64,000 bases of DNA from a virus, in IMG/VR virus record IMGVR_UViG_3300039106_000653, positions 1 to 64,000 of that record; one strand, given 5' to 3'. Numbering within the stretch: position 1 is the stretch's first letter; every line of letters begins with the position of its first letter. Of the stretch, positions 1,487 to 64,000 are shown in pieces. The position numbers were made by a program, and so were the translations under genes. The notes beneath the pieces were generated by a model, which was not told the DNA's origin, did no database searches, and saw only the letters and a list, made by a program, of their open reading frames with translations.

Positions 1487-1977
1487 CAAGTTTATACGAA
1501 ATATCGCAAACCCATAATCAAGCATTACTAAACATGGCAGATATGGATGATCTACCAGAAGAAGTGATTAACGACACACTGGAAATGCTTGAAGGTGATT
1601 TTAAGGACAAAGCCATATCTGTTGCTGCGTTCTTTTTGAACCAAGAAGCAGATATTAAGGCAATGAAAGATGCTGAAAAGCGAATAGCAGATAGACGAAA
1701 ATCTATCGAGAATCGCGTTAATTGGATGAAGAATTACTTGCTATCCAATATGCAACGCACTGGCATCACTTCTATTGACTGCCCTCAATTTTCAATAAAG
1801 CTTAGAAACAATCCTGAATCAGTTAAAGTGTTAGATGAAGATTTAATACCTGATGAATACATTGTCAAGAAAATTGAGCATAGCGTTGACAAGGTTGCCA
1901 TTAAAAATGCTATCAAATCTGGCGAAAAGATTGACGGAGTTGAATTAGTTAGAAGTCAGTCAATAATGTTTAAGTAA
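1483..1977 (+). CDS. Siphovirus Gp157 family protein
   Basis: A 164-aa protein starting in an ATGA overlap with the ATPase. Visible hallmarks are the N-terminal SLYEISQ, a long helical middle (residues ~45-90) with ENRVNWMKNYLLSNM, and a C-terminal SIDCPQFSIKLRNNPESV block followed by LIPDEYIV and a KIDGVELV segment. This is the typical order of the phage Gp157 family, once linked to phage resistance in Streptococcus and usually found beside recombination genes. Molecular function is unknown; translational coupling to the ATPase suggests they act together. Confidence 0.88.
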   Translation: MTSLYEISQTHNQALLNMADMDDLPEEVINDTLEMLEGDFKDKAISVAAFFLNQEADIKAMKDAEKRIADRRKSIENRVNWMKNYLLSNMQRTGITSIDCPQFSIKLRNNPESVKVLDEDLIPDEYIVKKIEHSVDKVAIKNAIKSGEKIDGVELVRSQSIMFK

Positions 1978-4531: not shown

Positions 4532-4605
4532 GTGTCACTAAAAATTAGTGATACAGGCTGCAATCCTGGAATATCACGGCATAACGCCGCTACATGCGGT
4601 TTTTT
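4532..4605 (+). ncRNA. Leader RNA of module A: two hairpins, target mimics and terminator
   Basis: The predicted transcript starts with a 10-bp hairpin (4532-4541 with 4545-4554, one G-U pair). A 4-bp hairpin CAGG/CCTG (4554-4557 with 4565-4568) follows, holding CTGCAAT in its loop. Next is TATCACGG (4572-4579), then competing stems: CGGC (4577-4580) with GCCG (4586-4589), or CCGC (4587-4590) with GCGG (4596-4599) followed by six T. CTGCAAT and TATCACGG both recur downstream at the Bro-N start, so the leader carries a copy of each target site. The layout repeats at 63386-63466. Confidence 0.65.
4587..4605 (+). terminator. Intrinsic terminator inside the module A leader
   Basis: CCGC and GCGG arms with a 5-base loop, followed by TTTTTT. 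Its left arm is shared with an alternative upstream stem, so it probably acts as an attenuator rather than a constitutive stop. Confidence 0.65.
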
Positions 4606-4638
4606 ATTGTCAAAAATTTAGCTCATAATTATGCTGGG

Positions 4639-4698
4639 CTAAGTTAGGCCATCTTTGGGTGGGCCGGGTCGTGATTCCGGTATTGCAACCTAACTTAG
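4639..4698 (+). ncRNA. c4-like antisense RNA fold, module A
   Basis: A 10-bp closing helix pairs 4639-4648 with 4689-4698 perfectly. Inside are a 5-bp hairpin CCATC/GGTGG (4649-4653, 4658-4662) and a 4-bp CCGG/CCGG hairpin (4664-4667, 4677-4680) with a 9-base loop. An 8-base single strand TATTGCAA (4681-4688) precedes the closing helix. Loop bases CGTGAT (4670-4675) pair with ATCACG at 4742-4747 over the Bro-N ribosome site. TATTGCA pairs with TGCAATA at 4714-4720. This two-site arrangement upstream of an antirepressor is that of c4 RNA in phages P1, P7 and N15, where c4 blocks expression of ant. Class membership is inferred from architecture. Confidence 0.7.
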
Positions 4699-4712
4699 TT
4701 CCGGCTCCAATT

Positions 4713-4750
4713 CTGCAATAGTTGGCCCGGATAATTCAATTATCACGGAG
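4713..4750 (+). promoter_or_regulatory. Predicted c4-target sites over the Bro-N ribosome site
   Basis: CTGCAATA (4713-4720) and TATCACGG (4741-4748) are complementary to the two exposed segments of the upstream c4-like fold. The second overlaps the ribosome site GGAG (4747-4750), 6 bases ahead of the ATG at 4757. Pairing there would block initiation. Confidence 0.6.
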
Positions 4751-4756
4751 AAAGTC

Positions 4757-5527
4757 ATGCCTGCATTAGAATTATCATTCCAAAATACTCAATTTGATAT
4801 TATTGATCGTAATGGTTGCACTTGGTTAAAATCTAGCCAAATAGCAACGGCTTTAGGATATTCAGATCAAAGTAGTATCAATAGAATTTATGCAAGAAAC
4901 AAAGATGAGTTCAGCGAGTCAATGTCAGCATCGGTCAAACTGACCGACCCTAATGGTGATATGCAAGATACAAGGATTTTTAGCTTAAGAGGGTGTCATT
5001 TACTGGCGATGCTTTCAAAAACTAAAATTGCTAAAGACTTTAGAAAATGGGTTCTTGATTTGATAGATAGGCAATTAGAATCTTCTTCTAGTATCTCCGA
5101 ATCCGAAGCGCAGCAGTTCAAGAAGTCAATGGAAAATCATTGTAAGCACAATGGCAAAAAGTACAGTGAACTGTATCGAATGGTTTATGACTATTTTGGG
5201 ATTACAAGTTACAAAAATATCCCGAATGGCAAGTTAAGTGAAGCGTGCCAAGTATGTGGAATGGACTTAATACCACTGTCTAGGCCAAAGATCACTGAAA
5301 ACAAAACTCCCATAAGTTTACCAGCACCTACAGTAGATAAACTAGACTGTGCGTCAGCTAGAAACACGCTATATCAACTGAAGCAACTACACAAAGATCA
5401 AGAATCAATCACTCGACTAGAGCACCTAGAGCGTTGCTACATCAAAGCTTGGACAGAAATGGATGAATCTATATTCAGACTAGAGTTAGCACTAGGTATG
5501 CTACGCCGATGGCGAACAACACTTTAA
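4757..5527 (+). CDS. Bro-N antirepressor-type protein with P22AR-like C-terminus
   Basis: A 256-aa protein. The N-terminal Bro-N domain (about residues 5-110) shows WLKSSQIATALGY, an SxFSLRGCHLLAMLSKT-like helix and a DFRKWVLDLIDRQ end. Residues ~130-170 contain KYSELYRMVYDYFGITSYKNIP, matching the P22 antirepressor C-terminal pattern. The final ~60 residues (LEHLERCYIKAWTEMDES...RRWR) are shared with the broken KilA-N gene at 16.3 kb. Antirepressors of this kind inactivate a prophage repressor. Its leader carries the c4-like control RNA. The repressor target is not seen in the window. Confidence 0.82.
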   Translation: MPALELSFQNTQFDIIDRNGCTWLKSSQIATALGYSDQSSINRIYARNKDEFSESMSASVKLTDPNGDMQDTRIFSLRGCHLLAMLSKTKIAKDFRKWVLDLIDRQLESSSSISESEAQQFKKSMENHCKHNGKKYSELYRMVYDYFGITSYKNIPNGKLSEACQVCGMDLIPLSRPKITENKTPISLPAPTVDKLDCASARNTLYQLKQLHKDQESITRLEHLERCYIKAWTEMDESIFRLELALGMLRRWRTTL

Positions 5528-22907: not shown

Positions 22908-25900
22908 CTAGGCCGCTATCTTGGTGTATTGCCTTATCAGGTATTCCATGCTCTTATCTCTTAACCTATCAGCCTCAAGCTTAAGTAACTTAGCCTTACC
23001 TGATTTACCATCTTTCTCAGCTTTAGTCGCTGCCGCCATCTTGCCATTAGCTTGATTGATACGGTGATTTATCTCGTCACCCAATTCGGCTAATTGTGCT
23101 TCCTCTGGCGTTAATTTAGAGCCAACTGATGCTTCTGCTGATAGATCATTCACTCTAGCAATATAGCGGTAAAACAGCTTCTCCTTAAGCGCATCATCAT
23201 CTTGTGCTAAAACCCATCTATCAACAAAAGGCGATACCGTTTGTTTGCCTCTAGCTTCACGACTAGGGTTTTCAATGAACTGCTTAATCAGTGTATTGAA
23301 TACCACTGGGAACGGCATGTAGGTTCTAGCTATCTCTCTGACTTCTTCAGGATATACATCAAAGCCTAATTTAGCCATTTCTTGCGCAAACATTTTGTAT
23401 TCTTCTGGCGTAGTCTTTCTGCCTTGCAATGCCTTAGCTTTGTTATCTTTAGCAAACTTAGCATTGGTCAGTGAGTTTCCAAATGCGTTAACATCCATAC
23501 CGACATTTGCTATGCCTTTGAATGGTTGCGGCGTGATAGATTGCATAAACCAGATTGCAGGATGATCTGAAATAGCGGTATCTGATGGTGCTACTGGTGA
23601 TGCTATTTTGATTGCACCATAAACCATTTCTGTTAATGTCTCGCCTGCCGACTGATTGCCTTGAGTGAACTTAGCCAAGTTAACCGCAGTAGACCATGCT
23701 AGTTGTGGTAAGCCGAAGCCTACTGGGATTTTAGCGTAAACACCATTGCCTACTGGAATCGGTATATTGCGATACAAGTTAAAGTTTCCCAGTTCATCCA
23801 TGTTATTTACACCAAGTTCATCATCGTCATCACCTGAGCGTAATAGTGAATACAGCATATAACCTGCAATGATGTAGGAGTACAGCCTGTATTGACCACG
23901 CTTAGTTTGAAGCGATTGAGCTAATTGGTGTGCTGATGTCGCTGCTGGCTGGGCAAACATCCATAACGCTCTAATAGGTGACATAATTCTGCCACGCTTA
24001 CTAAAGTTAAATAAGTTTAGCGATGTGGTTGCTGCTGTTTTGACATCTACATTCTGCTCACGCAATGCCTTGTAAACCGCATAACCTGAGATTAAGTCAA
24101 ATGATTGGTTCCAAGTATGCACGACATCCATTGAGCCTTTAGTCCATGTACCTATTTTTTCCAGCTTCTCTGATAGACCTTTACTATCGGTGTTCAGATA
24201 ATCACCCCAGGTACTCGCCCCACCTTCATTCAGAAACTCAAGGATAGATAATGTCTCAGGGTCTGAGTAATCCACTGTCAAATCCATTTTCATACCCAAG
24301 AAATTAACACCACCTTCTAGTGGCGTACCTAGTGCTGAAATCGACATAATCTTTTTCAATAGCTTCATGGTTTGCGTTGATGCAATAGCCAGTGTACGCT
24401 TACCTGCTAGGTTCATATCGACATTATCGTAACCAGGAATAGTCCTAGCACGAATATTCTCTGAACGCTCAAAGGTATCCATTAATGCGTTTTTAATTGC
24501 AAAGAATGGCATGAACTGCGTAATAAAACGACTGTTCCAAGCATTTAAGAATGCTACTGGTTTTAACAGTGTAGGTGTTTCTTCGTGGTTGATACTTCTC
24601 AATGCATCAATAGCGGCTTTATTGTTTAGATCATAAACCCAAACACTATCGCCTTTGCGCACGATAATACCATCATCACTGGTACGCTGGCCTTGTCTTT
24701 CTGCATGGCGATTAATGCCGTATTTTTCAGCAACCTCTCTAACTGCTTCTTGTTCGGTGCTGCCAGTATCAACAAAGCCTTTCACAAGATCATCATAAAC
24801 CTCTGTTAGCTTATCTTTGAAGTCTAGCCAGCCATGATACCTAGCAGACTTTTCTGCTTGCTCAAAACTAGCATCAATACCATTTTGCGCAAGGCTAGTT
24901 TGGCGTCCTTGTAATCTCTTATCGTTTTGCTGATTTAGATTGCCAGTGGTAAAGAAATCATCAGAACTATCATCATTACGCGGGTCGCCTGTCAATGGTA
25001 CATAGAATCCAGACTTATCGAATTTATCTGCTGCTTCTTGTGTTATCTTGCCATTCTTGATGTCTTGTTGCAGCTTGTAAGCATTCATTGCGTACACATG
25101 ATTAGCAACTTTTTCTATCAATCCTTTATCAAGCACTCGCTCAATATTTGCCATGTGCTTTTGCGCCGTGGCGTTATTATAACCACCCGCTAAACCTATC
25201 TCATGCTTTTGTACGGTCGGGTCAATAATATCTGGGCTATTCATTGCAGCTTCAAACTGATTAACTTTTTTAGTTGCTCGATCTAAAGCATTCGCTAATC
25301 GTTCTCTTTCCCCTGCAATTTCTGATGAAGTCATCATCGGGTCTGGATTATTGTTAAAAGCATCTAACTCTTGAAATGCTTCTTGCTCCTTTTCCTTGTA
25401 GCCTTTCAGTAAGTTTTGGTTGGCGATCTGAGCGTATCTAGCAGTCATCCATTGACCTGTCATTTCTTTAGTGGCTCGGTAATCTTTCCAACCTGCTTTA
25501 TTCATTACGGCACGAATTGATTTGCCAATGTCATCACCGAACTTCAGCATAATTTCTTTTTCAAACGCTTTCTTGCGCTCCACTGCACGATCTTTAGCCA
25601 TAACCAACTGCGCCGCTTTAATAGCATCAGGTAGCTTGCGCGTCCATACATCGAATGGTCTAGTTGCATCGGCAAATAATTCAACTAGCTTATCCGCAGT
25701 ATCATTCCATGTATCGCGTCTTTCTGGCATACGACCAGATTGCAAGATTTGATTAAACTCGTCTAAAGATCGTGGTGTCTCGGTATTATCGCCTAGTACA
25801 GTTCTTTTTGCCCTATCAGCAATGTTAGATGCAATACTAAATCTGATTTCGTTGTTGTCACCAGCATTAGCAGGAGCACTGTGCATTTCCTTACCGTTAT

Positions 25901-28900
25901 ACATCACAATAACATCACTATTGGGCGTGTCTTGTGTTGATTCTATCGGTGTATTCTTGCGCTGCTCTGCTGTTAGATATTGTCTTGCTTGTACATTGCG
26001 TGATTCTACTTCGCCTGCTAATCGTTTATATCTTTCTGACGAAGTAAGCTTTCCTTTACCATACTTTAATACTGCAATTTCATTAGTCCATGAGTTATAC
26101 AAAGAATCGTGCTCAAAAATATAAAATTCTAACTTTTCTTTCTGCGACCAATCAGCAACGCCTTTTCCATAATCTTTAGCCCAAGCATTTGCCTTATCAA
26201 TTAAGTCTTGCTTTGCATAATCAGCTTCTTCACTAACTTGATTTTCTCTTACGCGAATTTTATCTTCTAACTCATTGATTCTATATTTGTCTGCTAGCAC
26301 ATTTTGCTGTGAACTGTCTACACTTCCACCACTTGCAAAGCCTTCATTTTCCTGAATAGCGTGTTGTACTTCATGGAGTAGAATATTTAAAAACTCATCA
26401 TTTGCGCCTTTAAAACTATAGGGGTCTTTAATTGTTATGGTATTTGATTCTGGGCTAAAACCTGCGCTACTTTTGATGTTGTCATCAATTTTGACTCTAA
26501 CTAGATTTAACTGTGGATATGCCGCAAATAAAGCAGGATGCACCAATACATTTACTAATGGCTCACCATTTTCACGATTAGTGGCTTTTTCAATCCATGA
26601 GTCGCTATCCATTTGACTTGGCTGTAATCTTGCATCACTATCATCAATCTCGAATCGCCATTTACCGTCAACGCCTTTAAACCAGCCAGTGTCTTTACGG
26701 ACTTGCTCAGCATCATCACCTTTAGTTAGACGCTCTTGTGCTGTAGATAACTGGTATTTATCTGCTGTCTGTGCATTCTGTCCTGCGAATGATGTTCTTA
26801 CGCTATCATCAGTATTACCGATATTATCAAACAACAAACTATCAGGCGCAGTTCTTAGTGCATTCTCTGCCATGTAAGCAATATCATCAGTAGTCATCCT
26901 AGATGCGTAATTGTAGATAGCGAGTTTCTGTGCTGCGGGTAATGCTTTACCGATATTACGGATAGCTTGACGGAACCATGCTAGTAGGCGTTTTACGATG
27001 CCTAGTTGCGGGTGATATTGTACGAGGTACGCCAACGCTTCTTCGGTAATATGCTCTGCTTTAGTATCTTTAGGTACACGACCAAAAGCATCAACAACTT
27101 TCTTATTGCCGAAGTCACGCATTTGCTCTAACTGCGTAAGTATGGCTTTAAATTCTTTATCGTTTTTGCCAAGCTGTAACGCATGAACTGCAATCTCATG
27201 ATTCAGCAATCCAAAGAGATCGTTATCTTTGTCGATGTTGTTATAGACTAAATAAGTAGTATCTTTTCCGTTAGTATCATCATAGAAACCTTGAGCTATA
27301 GATGCTTTGTAGCCGCCTATATCATAAGCTTCATCGCTACTAATGATCTTAAACTTACCTGTAGCTAATAAACGATCTACCCAGTTGCTACCGAACTTAG
27401 CATTGAATACTTTACGCATTGATTGCAGTAATGATGCTTCAGTGTGTGGGTTCTCTACTTGGGATTGTGATGTTGAATAAGCAATTCCATTAAGGCTTTC
27501 AGGTAAATCTCCTGATAAAAATGAATCCAGAAGCTCAGAAAATCCTGATCTGTCGCCTTGTTTGGATATAAGTTCTTTTGTAAGAATAGCTCGCTTAATC
27601 GTTGCTTCGCCAATGCTAAAGCCTGCTTTTCTTGCTTGCTGCGAATGTTTTGCGTATTCGCTTTCTGTAATTTCTTTGCCAGCTTTGTTTTCAAATTTCC
27701 CGGTATTGGTATTGAATCTAGCATCATCAAACCATTGCTTGTCACTGATTGCATTTTCTACATAATCAAGGTTATCGGTGTCATAGAATGGACTTAGCTT
27801 TGGATTGCTTACGCTGAATTTAATATCGGTATCTTTGCTTGCGTAATGCTCTTTTGCAATTTCCGATGTATGGTAGTCGAAATCAGGCTCAGGAATGTAT
27901 TTTCCATCACTGTAATCAGATTGGTTTAGATCAAATGGTTTAAATAATTCAGCACCATAAGCATCATTTAGAGCCATTACAATAACTTGAGCATTACCAT
28001 CTTGTGACTCAATAGATATGCCATTAACAAACTGATAAATAACAGCCTTATCATAACCAAGTTTTTGTATAAGGTTAGCAGCTTCTTTAATATATTTTGC
28101 ACTCAATACGAAAGTATTATCTTTGAACTTTACTGATTTAAGCGTTATTGGTACATATTGATTGATGCTTCCATTTAAGAACTTACTTGTTTTAACAATG
28201 CCATCAGCATAGGCAGATAAGTTGACTGTTGAAACAACAAAACCTTCGCCATTATTCTTTGCTTCAGTAACGAGATTTTCTATTTTTGTATATTTAGGGT
28301 ATCTACCATCTATCCATGTTTCAGCTTCAGATTGTGATTTACCTTCTACCGATGCTCTGCTATATATTGCGTCAGAAAAATTATGTGAAAGCACTGGCAC
28401 ATCATCACCTGAGTATTTCACAGAAGCAATCATGTGACCATTTGTTGATGTTAGTTTTCCATCGCTTATCAAAAGTCCATTTAGGTAATATCTAACATCA
28501 TCCTTAGCCATTATTGGCAACAATGCTTTTGATATATCCTTAAATGTTTTATTAATTTTAGATACATTTGCTTTTTTGATAAATGGTACGATGTCACTTA
28601 AAAGCTGAGTTTCAAATCCATTTTGAATATATCCTTGTTTAGATATTTTTGGTGCTACTTTAGGTAATAGCCTGTTTAAGAATAATCTTGCGGCATCGGC
28701 GTAGGCTTTATCACTGGAGACTCTTTTCTCATAATCCCCTTCATCAAATAATCGCAATGAGTAAGTAATGTCATCACCAAGAAAATCACTTGAATCCTTT
28801 ACAGGTTGTGCAATACCTTTTGCTTCTGTTGGCTTATCTTTTAATTCTTTATCATTTTTTTCTGCAATAGATACAAGATGAGCTATATGCGGATTACCTA

Positions 28901-30104
28901 ATATGCTAGCGTCATTAATGTATCTATAATCTCCAACGTTAACCTTTGTATTTACAGCTAGTTTAGCAAAATCTTTATATTTATCTTTATACTCCTGGTT
29001 GCCATCTAATTCTGTAAAAGTGGAAACGAATTTTTCAACCCAATCTTGCTCTAGCTTTTTATCATCACTATAAGCAGCGTAAGTATAAAAGTCAGTGACC
29101 AAATCATTTACAATATTTTTTAACTTATCAGAAGTAAGTAAATCACTTGCAATGCTGTCGCTATCTGAAACATCATTAATTATTTTTTCTTCTGATTGCT
29201 GGCTTTGTGATTCTGTATCATCTTCAAGTTCAGACGATAATTTACCAAAACCCAATTTCTCTTTAGCTTTTCGATCTTCTATTTCTTTCGATGAAAGTCC
29301 ACCTTTAACTTCATTTTCTGTAATAACACCTTTATCTAGTGCGGCCTGATAAAGATTTACACCGTCCTGCCATAGCTTTTGATACTCACTGTTGTTAGCT
29401 ATTTCAAAAGCAGTTTTAAATGCTTTTACTTCTTTTTCTTTTCTAATTCCTGATTTATAAGCAAGTTCTTCTGGTGATTTATTTGAGCTAAACGCAAACG
29501 ATTCAGCACCAGCATCTAAGCCTTTGTTAAAAGCGCCTCTGACATTATCTTTTACCAATATTGGATTTTTTGCATCAGCTTCAAGGTTGATTTGTGATTC
29601 TGAATCACTAGGTAATTTAGCTACCCTAACTCGAATATTCCTTAGCTTTTCATTACTTTTTAATCTTTCAGGATAATCCTTGCTACTACTCATTCTTGCA
29701 ATACTACCTACTCCACCAGTGTATGCATTATTAACAATCGCGTCTGTTAAAATATCCTGATAAGCAACAGATAGTCCTAGTTTTTTATTGCCTTTAGAAA
29801 CTAGCTTTTCAAATTCATCCTCAGTAATGAATTTTGTTTTTTCATCAAGCACGCCTTTTATAGCATGTTTTCCATTAGGTATATTATTGAATACATAAGC
29901 AATGACAGTACCCATATCTGACTGCTTCTGTTCATATTCTGTTTTAGGTGATTCTGCTTTGACCTCACTCACACCTGTTAAGGACTTATAATCAAACTTA
30001 ACATCAGGATAAAGCTTTTCTAATCCACCATTAGCTAAGTAGGCTTTAAACTCATTCTGTGAGATAAAATCTTCCGTTCCTGGCAAAGCATAGGTACACG
30101 CCAT
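22908..30104 (-). CDS. Giant multidomain polyvalent protein, probably packaged in the virion
   Basis: A 2398-aa protein, the largest in the window. Visible modules: a region at ~505-715 resembling a DNA sliding clamp (VRYYLNGLLISDGKLTSTNGHM, then WIDGRYPKYTKIEN); a metallopeptidase-like NHEIAVHAL near 967; a second HEVQHA site near 1243 (HExxH form) in LNILLHEVQHAIQENEGFA; a long helical region ~1450-1700; and an LPD38-like segment near 1865 (FMPFFAIKNALMDTFER). Polyvalent proteins of phages and conjugative elements are typically injected with DNA to protect or establish it. The late position, among virion genes, supports that. It is coupled to the upstream gene by TAATG. Confidence 0.75.
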   Translation of the reverse strand: MACTYALPGTEDFISQNEFKAYLANGGLEKLYPDVKFDYKSLTGVSEVKAESPKTEYEQKQSDMGTVIAYVFNNIPNGKHAIKGVLDEKTKFITEDEFEKLVSKGNKKLGLSVAYQDILTDAIVNNAYTGGVGSIARMSSSKDYPERLKSNEKLRNIRVRVAKLPSDSESQINLEADAKNPILVKDNVRGAFNKGLDAGAESFAFSSNKSPEELAYKSGIRKEKEVKAFKTAFEIANNSEYQKLWQDGVNLYQAALDKGVITENEVKGGLSSKEIEDRKAKEKLGFGKLSSELEDDTESQSQQSEEKIINDVSDSDSIASDLLTSDKLKNIVNDLVTDFYTYAAYSDDKKLEQDWVEKFVSTFTELDGNQEYKDKYKDFAKLAVNTKVNVGDYRYINDASILGNPHIAHLVSIAEKNDKELKDKPTEAKGIAQPVKDSSDFLGDDITYSLRLFDEGDYEKRVSSDKAYADAARLFLNRLLPKVAPKISKQGYIQNGFETQLLSDIVPFIKKANVSKINKTFKDISKALLPIMAKDDVRYYLNGLLISDGKLTSTNGHMIASVKYSGDDVPVLSHNFSDAIYSRASVEGKSQSEAETWIDGRYPKYTKIENLVTEAKNNGEGFVVSTVNLSAYADGIVKTSKFLNGSINQYVPITLKSVKFKDNTFVLSAKYIKEAANLIQKLGYDKAVIYQFVNGISIESQDGNAQVIVMALNDAYGAELFKPFDLNQSDYSDGKYIPEPDFDYHTSEIAKEHYASKDTDIKFSVSNPKLSPFYDTDNLDYVENAISDKQWFDDARFNTNTGKFENKAGKEITESEYAKHSQQARKAGFSIGEATIKRAILTKELISKQGDRSGFSELLDSFLSGDLPESLNGIAYSTSQSQVENPHTEASLLQSMRKVFNAKFGSNWVDRLLATGKFKIISSDEAYDIGGYKASIAQGFYDDTNGKDTTYLVYNNIDKDNDLFGLLNHEIAVHALQLGKNDKEFKAILTQLEQMRDFGNKKVVDAFGRVPKDTKAEHITEEALAYLVQYHPQLGIVKRLLAWFRQAIRNIGKALPAAQKLAIYNYASRMTTDDIAYMAENALRTAPDSLLFDNIGNTDDSVRTSFAGQNAQTADKYQLSTAQERLTKGDDAEQVRKDTGWFKGVDGKWRFEIDDSDARLQPSQMDSDSWIEKATNRENGEPLVNVLVHPALFAAYPQLNLVRVKIDDNIKSSAGFSPESNTITIKDPYSFKGANDEFLNILLHEVQHAIQENEGFASGGSVDSSQQNVLADKYRINELEDKIRVRENQVSEEADYAKQDLIDKANAWAKDYGKGVADWSQKEKLEFYIFEHDSLYNSWTNEIAVLKYGKGKLTSSERYKRLAGEVESRNVQARQYLTAEQRKNTPIESTQDTPNSDVIVMYNGKEMHSAPANAGDNNEIRFSIASNIADRAKRTVLGDNTETPRSLDEFNQILQSGRMPERRDTWNDTADKLVELFADATRPFDVWTRKLPDAIKAAQLVMAKDRAVERKKAFEKEIMLKFGDDIGKSIRAVMNKAGWKDYRATKEMTGQWMTARYAQIANQNLLKGYKEKEQEAFQELDAFNNNPDPMMTSSEIAGERERLANALDRATKKVNQFEAAMNSPDIIDPTVQKHEIGLAGGYNNATAQKHMANIERVLDKGLIEKVANHVYAMNAYKLQQDIKNGKITQEAADKFDKSGFYVPLTGDPRNDDSSDDFFTTGNLNQQNDKRLQGRQTSLAQNGIDASFEQAEKSARYHGWLDFKDKLTEVYDDLVKGFVDTGSTEQEAVREVAEKYGINRHAERQGQRTSDDGIIVRKGDSVWVYDLNNKAAIDALRSINHEETPTLLKPVAFLNAWNSRFITQFMPFFAIKNALMDTFERSENIRARTIPGYDNVDMNLAGKRTLAIASTQTMKLLKKIMSISALGTPLEGGVNFLGMKMDLTVDYSDPETLSILEFLNEGGASTWGDYLNTDSKGLSEKLEKIGTWTKGSMDVVHTWNQSFDLISGYAVYKALREQNVDVKTAATTSLNLFNFSKRGRIMSPIRALWMFAQPAATSAHQLAQSLQTKRGQYRLYSYIIAGYMLYSLLRSGDDDDELGVNNMDELGNFNLYRNIPIPVGNGVYAKIPVGFGLPQLAWSTAVNLAKFTQGNQSAGETLTEMVYGAIKIASPVAPSDTAISDHPAIWFMQSITPQPFKGIANVGMDVNAFGNSLTNAKFAKDNKAKALQGRKTTPEEYKMFAQEMAKLGFDVYPEEVREIARTYMPFPVVFNTLIKQFIENPSREARGKQTVSPFVDRWVLAQDDDALKEKLFYRYIARVNDLSAEASVGSKLTPEEAQLAELGDEINHRINQANGKMAAATKAEKDGKSGKAKLLKLEADRLRDKSMEYLIRQYTKIAA

Positions 30105-63349: not shown

Positions 63350-63378
63350 TTTACTTTTATATTGTTTCGTGGTATGTT
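63350..63378 (+). promoter_or_regulatory. Possible promoter of c4-like module B
   Basis: TTTACT (63350-63355) and TATGTT (63373-63378) are 17 bases apart, placing the start at about 63385, directly before the first leader hairpin, as in module A. Each box matches 4 of 6 consensus bases. Confidence 0.45.
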
Positions 63379-63385
63379 ATCTCTA

Positions 63386-63466
63386 GTTGCACCACATTGT
63401 GCGACCGGGCTTGACATCCCGAAATACCAAGGCGCATGACAACGCCGCATTTTAGCGGTTTTTTTT
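63386..63466 (+). ncRNA. Leader RNA of module B: two hairpins, target mimics and terminator
   Basis: Hairpin 1 pairs 63386-63392 with 63399-63405. Hairpin 2 is CGGG/CCCG (63406-63409, 63418-63421) with CTTGACAT in the loop. ACCAAG (63426-63431) follows. Competing stems are GGCG/CGCC (63431-63434, 63443-63446) and the terminator CCGC/GCGG (63445-63448, 63455-63458) with eight T. The order and spacing equal those of module A. TTGACAT is complementary to ATGTCAA of the downstream c4-like fold, and ACCAAG to its loop. Confidence 0.65.
63445..63466 (+). terminator. Intrinsic terminator inside the module B leader
   Basis: CCGC and GCGG arms with a 6-base loop and TTTTTTTT. Its left arm is shared with the rival GGCG/CGCC stem, as in module A. 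Confidence 0.65.
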
Positions 63467-63492
63467 ATGCGTAAAACATCCCTTCTATTATG

Positions 63493-63562
63493 GCGGGGTG
63501 AATTAGGCCATCGAAAGGTGGGCCGGTACTTGGTTCCGGTATGTCAACCTGATTCACTCCGC
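63493..63562 (+). ncRNA. c4-like antisense RNA fold, module B
   Basis: A 15-bp closing helix (63493-63507 with 63548-63562, two G-U pairs) encloses CCATC-GAAA-GGTGG, one G, then CCGG/CCGG with a 9-base loop TACTTGGTT, then the single strand TATGTCAA (63540-63547). Every element and spacing equals module A, while helix and pairing sequences differ. Loop CTTGGTT (63529-63535) pairs with AACCAAG at 63602-63608 near the Bro-N start. CCGGTATGTCAA (63536-63547) pairs over 12 positions, with three G-U, with 63572-63583. Confidence 0.7.
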
Positions 63563-63571
63563 CGCCCAAGT

Positions 63572-63608
63572 TTGGCATATTGGCAGCGGTTTATATTTCT
63601 TAACCAAG
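63572..63608 (+). promoter_or_regulatory. Predicted c4-target sites upstream of the module B Bro-N start
   Basis: TTGGCATATTGG (63572-63583) and AACCAAG (63602-63608) are complementary to the two exposed segments of the module B fold. The second ends 10 bases before the ATG at 63619, over the ribosome-binding region. Confidence 0.55.
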
Positions 63609-63618
63609 AGTCAATATA

Positions 63619-64000
63619 ATGAACAACAGTTCTACACAAACCGCACTACAGCAATTCTCTTTTGAATCTCAGTCTATCCGTATTATATCGGATGAAAACG
63701 GAGCACCTTGGTTTATTGCCAAGGATGTAGCCTCACTACTTGGCTATGCAAATACAAGAGAAACTATAATCAAACATTGCAAAAAATCTAAGTCATTGAA
63801 AGATATAGGGGTAGCGATTCACGACCCCTATACAAATCAACAACTTGACACACAAACAAAAGCAATACCCGAGTCCGATGTCTATCGCTTAATAATGCGT
63901 TCAAACCTTGAATCTGCCGATAAGTTTCAAGAATGGGTTTGTGATGAAGTGTTACCAGCTATCCGCAAAACTGGAAGTTACTCAGTTGACACAAGTCGCC
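63619..64000 (+). CDS. Bro-N antirepressor-type protein, cut by the window end
   Basis: 127 codons are visible, open to the window edge. The Bro-N domain is clear: QSIRIISDENGAPWFIAKDVASLLGYANTRETI near 18-50, then the ESDVYRLIMRSNLESADKFQEWVCDEVLPAIRKTGSY block that closes the domain near 95-123. The C-terminal domain is outside the window. It is a distinct gene from the Bro-N protein at 4757, with low similarity, and has its own c4-like leader. Confidence 0.88.
   Translation, partial: MNNSSTQTALQQFSFESQSIRIISDENGAPWFIAKDVASLLGYANTRETIIKHCKKSKSLKDIGVAIHDPYTNQQLDTQTKAIPESDVYRLIMRSNLESADKFQEWVCDEVLPAIRKTGSYSVDTSR

Follow-up and report, generated by a model that had tools for sequence, protein, structure and literature searches.

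A phage carrying two differently coded C4 antisense RNA modules upstream of putative Bro-N antirepressor genes

The window analysed here, 64,000 nucleotides of a virus record of 69,387 bases, contains two C4 antisense RNA modules of different pairing specificity, and the one near its 3' end (63350-63619, module B) is, by its Rfam match, a new addition to the C4 family. The central RNA of module B is classed as a C4 because its score against the Rfam C4 antisense RNA profile (RF01695; 70.2 bits, E 1.3e-11) exceeds the curated cut-off of 45, and a differently coded copy elsewhere in the window, module A, is also matched by this profile. Both observations bear out the initial annotation, which had described the region as a second c4-like module with altered pairing sequences. 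Module B is very probably a canonical C4 antisense-RNA switch in which leader targets and a terminator precede the C4, a2/b2 targets lie at the ribosome-binding site of a Bro-N gene, and control would combine attenuation with translation block. The kind of RNA and the order of parts in P1 and Gifsy-1 are already known, and two or more C4s per phage recur elsewhere; our analysis adds a four-pairing code followed family-wide, evidence that two-switch phages recur and that their copies differ in a', and computational support for b1 as part of an attenuator.

Every element previously described for module B, including hairpins, terminator, helices, loop and targets, was found in its place (Table 1). 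Folding and the Rfam alignment place stems P1-P3, loop b' and single strand a' within the C4, and a' and b' are complementary to a2 and b2 at the ribosome-binding site upstream of a gene whose full-length product matches Pfam Bro-N (E 1.8e-24) and is a likely, putative antirepressor. The leader aligns over its full length with isrK (RF01394, 63386-63465; 42.6 bits, E 1e-7, cut-off 50) and partially with c4-a1b1 (RF03163, 63386-63423, 14-51 of 53; 24.8 bits, cut-off 46.7), both below the curated thresholds; because a1 and b1 are both present we refer to it as c4-a1b1-like, and it probably functions as isrK/c4-a1b1 leaders do. Pairing of b1 with b' covers 6 bases only, and the antiterminator consists of four base pairs. 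The promoter proposed at the start of the module is weak: a consensus promoter scan of module B returned no match, and a weak candidate -10 element was located from the position equivalent to the IsrK start. DNA similarity searches against deposited phages gave nothing useful for module A or B, and a search with the Bro-N proteins found three distant relatives only.

Table 1 Features of modules A and B and of a tandem C4 locus (window positions, except for L427)
Feature	Position	Strand	Remarks
Module A leader	4559..4600	+	a1 TGCAAT 4559-4564; b1 ATCACGG 4573-4579; terminator 4586-4600
Module A C4 antisense RNA	4627..4711	+	Rfam RF01695, 57.4 bits; above cut-off 45
Module A b' GTCGTGATT	4668-4676	+
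Module A a' ATTGCAA	4682-4688	+
Module A downstream targets	4714..4747	+	a2 TGCAATA 4714-4720; b2 ATCACG 4742-4747
Module A Bro-N gene, putative antirepressor	4757..5527	+	256 aa; Pfam Bro-N E 5.8e-13; weak ORF6C match
Module B possible -10 element TATGTT	63373..63378	+	weak, -35 uncertain; 8 bases 5' of IsrK-start-equivalent position
Module B IsrK/c4-a1b1-like leader RNA	63386..63466	+	ends at intrinsic terminator; isrK and c4-a1b1 matches below cut-off
Leader hairpin GTTGCAC/GTGCGAC	63386-63405	+
Leader hairpin CGGG/CCCG	63406-63421	+	loop contains TTGACAT
a1 target TTGACAT	63411..63417	+	in CGGG/CCCG hairpin loop; complements a' ATGTCAA; tracks a' across homologues
b1 target ACCAAG	63426..63431	+	complements loop b'; own-loop preference over 69 loops
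Antiterminator hairpin GGCG/CGCC	63431..63446	+	arms 63431-63434/63443-63446; 5' arm touches b1; overlaps terminator
Intrinsic terminator GCCGC-ATTTTA-GCGGT-T7	63444..63466	+	overlapped by antiterminator hairpin
Module B C4 antisense RNA	63486..63569	+	Rfam RF01695
C4 closing helix P1	63492-63507/63548-63563	+
C4 hairpin CCATC-GAAA-GGTGG	63508-63521	+
b' loop TACTTGGTT	63527..63535	+	loop of CCGG hairpin
Single strand TATGTCAA	63540-63547	+	includes a' ATGTCAA at 63541..63547
a2 target TTGGCATA	63572..63579	+	one G-U pair with a'
b2 target AACCAAG	63602..63608	+	overlaps ribosome-binding site AAGAG (63606-63610)
Module B Bro-N gene, putative antirepressor	63619..64000	+	ATG at 63619; continues beyond window (L003:619-1461); 280 aa
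L427 C4s	501-586, 856-941, 1454-1539, 1808-1893		each with own leader and terminator

The pairing sequences of C4 loci change in concert throughout the family. A pattern scan of viral contigs yielded more than 100 C4 loci, two short patterns having been dropped in favour of a longer one because their matches were mostly chance, and one locus was retained per distinct loop (n = 69, both window modules included). Across these 69 loops, b' scored higher against its own leader than against foreign leaders (mean 18.5 versus 13.7) and higher against its own downstream region than against foreign ones (20.1 versus 13.9), with permutation z values of 18 and 21, respectively, and observed sums reached in none of 2,000 permutations. 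Target b1 mostly lies 45-85 bases 5' of the C4, and b2 about 30-40 bases 3' of it. The a' strand co-varies with a1 and a2 across homologues, such that the variants TGAC, ATTC, ACGC, CGAC and AGTTC accompany TTGGTCA, TTGGAAT, TTGGCGT, TTGGTCG and TTGGAAC, upstream and downstream alike, and simple pair counts over homologues revealed extensive compensatory change with many pair types in stems P1 and P2. Family membership, anatomy and covariation are established by these analyses. Because all four pairings follow the code family-wide, the concerted change between modules A and B is, judging from sequence, real, functional and ordinary for C4 RNAs. Co-change of loop and target had thus been correctly read as a sign of function; the implied specialness of a four-pairing change does not survive, as the same is seen throughout the family and two or three distinct C4s coexist in several phages. 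Among the first genes 3' of 66 C4s, domains of the antirepressor type are the most frequent kind, comprising Bro-N (15), Rha (6), KilA-N (5) and AntA (3) and, in smaller numbers, others such as ANT and P22_AR_N.

We infer transcription, processing, attenuation, repression and an immunity function for module B as follows. A single transcript would carry the leader with a1/b1 and the terminator, the C4, a2/b2 at the ribosome-binding site and the Bro-N antirepressor gene. In phage P1 the C4 is cut from its transcript by RNase P, the processed RNA expected of the family being ~77 nt long, and in module B the C4 segment is probably also cut out. Loop b' and strand a' would then pair in trans with a2/b2 and block antirepressor translation. 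The C4 would also pair with a1/b1, and occupancy of b1 would prevent the antiterminator from forming and cause termination before the C4 and the gene, keeping the prophage quiet and making C4 production self-limiting. Once terminated, the leader RNA, which carries a1/b1, could sequester C4 and reopen expression, like IsrK activating anrP in Gifsy-1. Simple sponging fits poorly with the report that co-expression of the C4-equivalent RNA made IsrK toxicity worse (PMC4825925). Module A would use the same scheme with a different code. An immunity role is suggested by analogy with P1/P7 and by the Bro-N gene. Weighing against the scheme as a whole are leader scores under both cut-offs, the negative consensus promoter scan, the four-pair antiterminator, 5'-arm pairing that b1 blocking failed to lower in module B, and the direct placement of the Bro-N gene, which differs from P1 and Gifsy-1.

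Leaders across the family point to attenuation at b1. A strictly defined terminator is present in 30 of 69 leaders, compared with 2% of shuffles and 2 of 69 downstream regions, and both this terminator and a GGCG adjoining b1 recur across leaders. As a stand-in for C4 binding, b1 was forced unpaired in 26 leaders in which it lies just before the terminator, with terminator probabilities derived from equilibrium, not kinetic, folding. With b1 blocked, the mean predicted probability of the terminator rose from 0.60 to 0.84 (p = 3e-4), with module B rising from 0.60 to 0.95 and module A from 0.90 to 0.97. The gain was 0.24-0.25 when blocking either b1 or 4 bases after it, and windows 4-40 bases upstream of b1 could be blocked without effect (mean change -0.04 to +0.05). 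Nascent 5'-arm pairing in module B was not lowered by blocking b1 (0.62 to 0.71). The computed rise in predicted terminator probability upon b1 occupancy is new, and provides supporting evidence for a model in which attenuation at b1 would be coupled to a block of translation, resembling the immunity of phage P4.

An alternative that we hold to be rather unlikely, though far from negligible, is that C4 acts at a2/b2 only, by translation block and secondary Rho termination, with a1/b1 being no attenuator but setting the amount of free C4, as a sponge or by folding in cis, in the manner of IsrK in Gifsy-1. Secondary Rho termination is known alongside the translation block in P1, the P1 record annotates a1/b1 merely as putative targets, and in the minimum free energy fold of the module A transcript the leader pairs with the C4 in cis; in Gifsy-1, an alternative fold between leader and downstream sequence and a trans-activating leader RNA have been demonstrated (PMC4825925). 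The recurrence of the terminator and GGCG next to b1 speaks against this reading, as do the specific effect of b1 occupancy in silico and the described precedent of P4 CI/seqA for termination by such pairing (PMC4825925, PMC10111431). Targets in the leader and at the ribosome-binding site obey the antisense code family-wide, so whether the little-studied a1/b1 target acts as attenuator or sponge can be tested directly in this phage, with its two independent copies.

C4 antisense RNA was first found in phage P1, whose record is annotated in the order a1, b1, c4, a2, b2, icd, ant. The P1/P7 C4 (RF01695) and module B share the RNA fold, part order, ribosome-site target, antirepressor-type gene downstream and co-varying specificity strands; P1 has a single C4 and an icd frame before ant, whereas this phage has two C4s and the Bro-N gene of module B follows directly, with no small icd/orf45-like frame between. 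The Gifsy-1 locus contains matches to isrK (79.3 bits), c4-a1b1 (48.1) and C4 (69.0), then an antirepressor-like gene. Within a single leader there, IsrK overlaps the c4-a1b1 motif of Rfam (L362:34131-34329). Work on this locus has reported a short leader transcript, an mRNA arising by read-through, a processed downstream RNA of ~80 nt and trans activation by IsrK, has likened the locus to P4 CI/seqA and does not use the name C4 RNA (PMC4825925); the processed STnc1160 RNA is in all likelihood the RNA matched by the Rfam C4 profile. The IsrK-STnc1160-AnrP arrangement resembles module B in its leader hairpins, terminator, C4 RNA and antirepressor-like gene, and differs in its intervening orf45, its pairing sequences and its leader, that of module B being below the isrK and a1b1 cut-offs. 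In the P4 system (CI RNA/seqA/seqC), too, an antisense RNA is processed and has complementary sites on either side, upstream and downstream, and transcription ends early (as proposed in module B), but the genes controlled are those of replication, and the relation to module B is taken from PMC4825925 and PMC10111431 rather than from sequence comparison. Searches with the Rfam profiles for C4 and isrK recover relatives of P4 CI and seqA (PMC10111431), and c4 and c4-a1b1 are both listed as motifs in PMC2864571. One Acinetobacter genome carries 21 C4-like sRNAs with variable a', and C4-like RNAs are shown in the same study to be highly expressed with processing-like read patterns (PMC5320573); the GG at the 5' side of P1 in module B (63492-63493) is compatible with the GGW/GGC sites of that study. 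The Acinetobacter baumannii Group 1 sRNAs share many C4-like RNAs per genome and a' variation with our phage (PMC5320573), but form a chromosomal set rather than a pair in one phage record.

Within the window, self pairing scores exceed cross scores at the gene (31.5 and 33.5 versus 20.5 and 21.5) and at the leader (32.5 and 31 versus 19 and 27), and for this reason modules A and B are predicted to be most likely orthogonal, each C4 controlling only its own gene through codes that probably do not interfere. A four-base difference suffices for non-cross-reaction between P1 and P7, according to a citation in PMC5320573. The least clear-cut pairing is that of the module A RNA on the module B leader (27 versus self 31), and this moderate score and the short b1 of module B are what favours regarding one or both modules as decaying or cross-acting duplicates without separate function. 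We consider this reading improbable: every target in either module matches its cognate C4, neither Bro-N frame is interrupted, and a pattern of co-change like this one is not maintained without continuing selection. Taken alone, the individual pairings of module B are moderately unlikely by chance against shuffled targets (b'-b2, 33/2000; a'-a1, 19/2000; a'-a2, 18/2000; b'-b1, 289/2000). Although each short pairing is thus only 1-14% rare, a chance structure unrelated to C4 is ruled out by the Rfam C4 match, and the gene context is conserved.

With this window the C4 family gains a clear two-switch phage. Two or more C4s above the cut-off occur in 9 of 48 C4-bearing viral records (three in one record), a proportion that overstates their frequency because several records were picked for having two C4s already seen. 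In the window and in all nine records (a pair of them closely related), the a' strand differs between copies, an observation drawn from phage records retrieved mostly by a pattern favouring one a' type and hence made without an unbiased expectation for a' identity; in two of these records the copies have the same b' and different a'. C4s are also carried by 24 of 369 gammaproteobacterial genomes, ten of which have more than one. The rule of differing a' is not absolute across a host genome, because one genome (G129) has two contigs with C4s identical in a' and b' and another (G270) has two C4s with the same a' and different b'. With somewhat less than even confidence, we propose that co-resident C4s are selected to stay orthogonal, mainly at a', and that a C4 acts twice on its own transcript, through attenuation at b1 and translation block at a2/b2.

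One gammaproteobacterial genome has four C4 cassettes arranged in tandem within some 1.4 kb (L427; G313:C9:1200-3700), in which a' differs in each cassette with a1 and a2 matching, three share the same b', and the intervening frames are short. If the proposed selection operates, these cassettes, in which a' varies and b' stays almost the same, would represent an extreme form of selected orthogonality. The genome has two further C4s of this kind outside the tandem array. A different genome (G326; contigs 57, 81, 88, 104, 129, 149 and 163) has ten C4 matches, several with P3 regions enlarged or differently folded, perhaps representing a divergent C4 subgroup. In the phage itself, a 108-residue protein is encoded 3' of the module B Bro-N gene (L003:2095-2421; record 65095-65421) and shows similarity to the C-terminal region of the putative antirepressor of module A (34% over 91 residues, E 6e-14), as if the two domains had been split in B. 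Also encoded in the window, on the minus strand (22908-30104), is a protein of 2398 residues that contains the polyvalent-protein domains LPD23 and LPD38.
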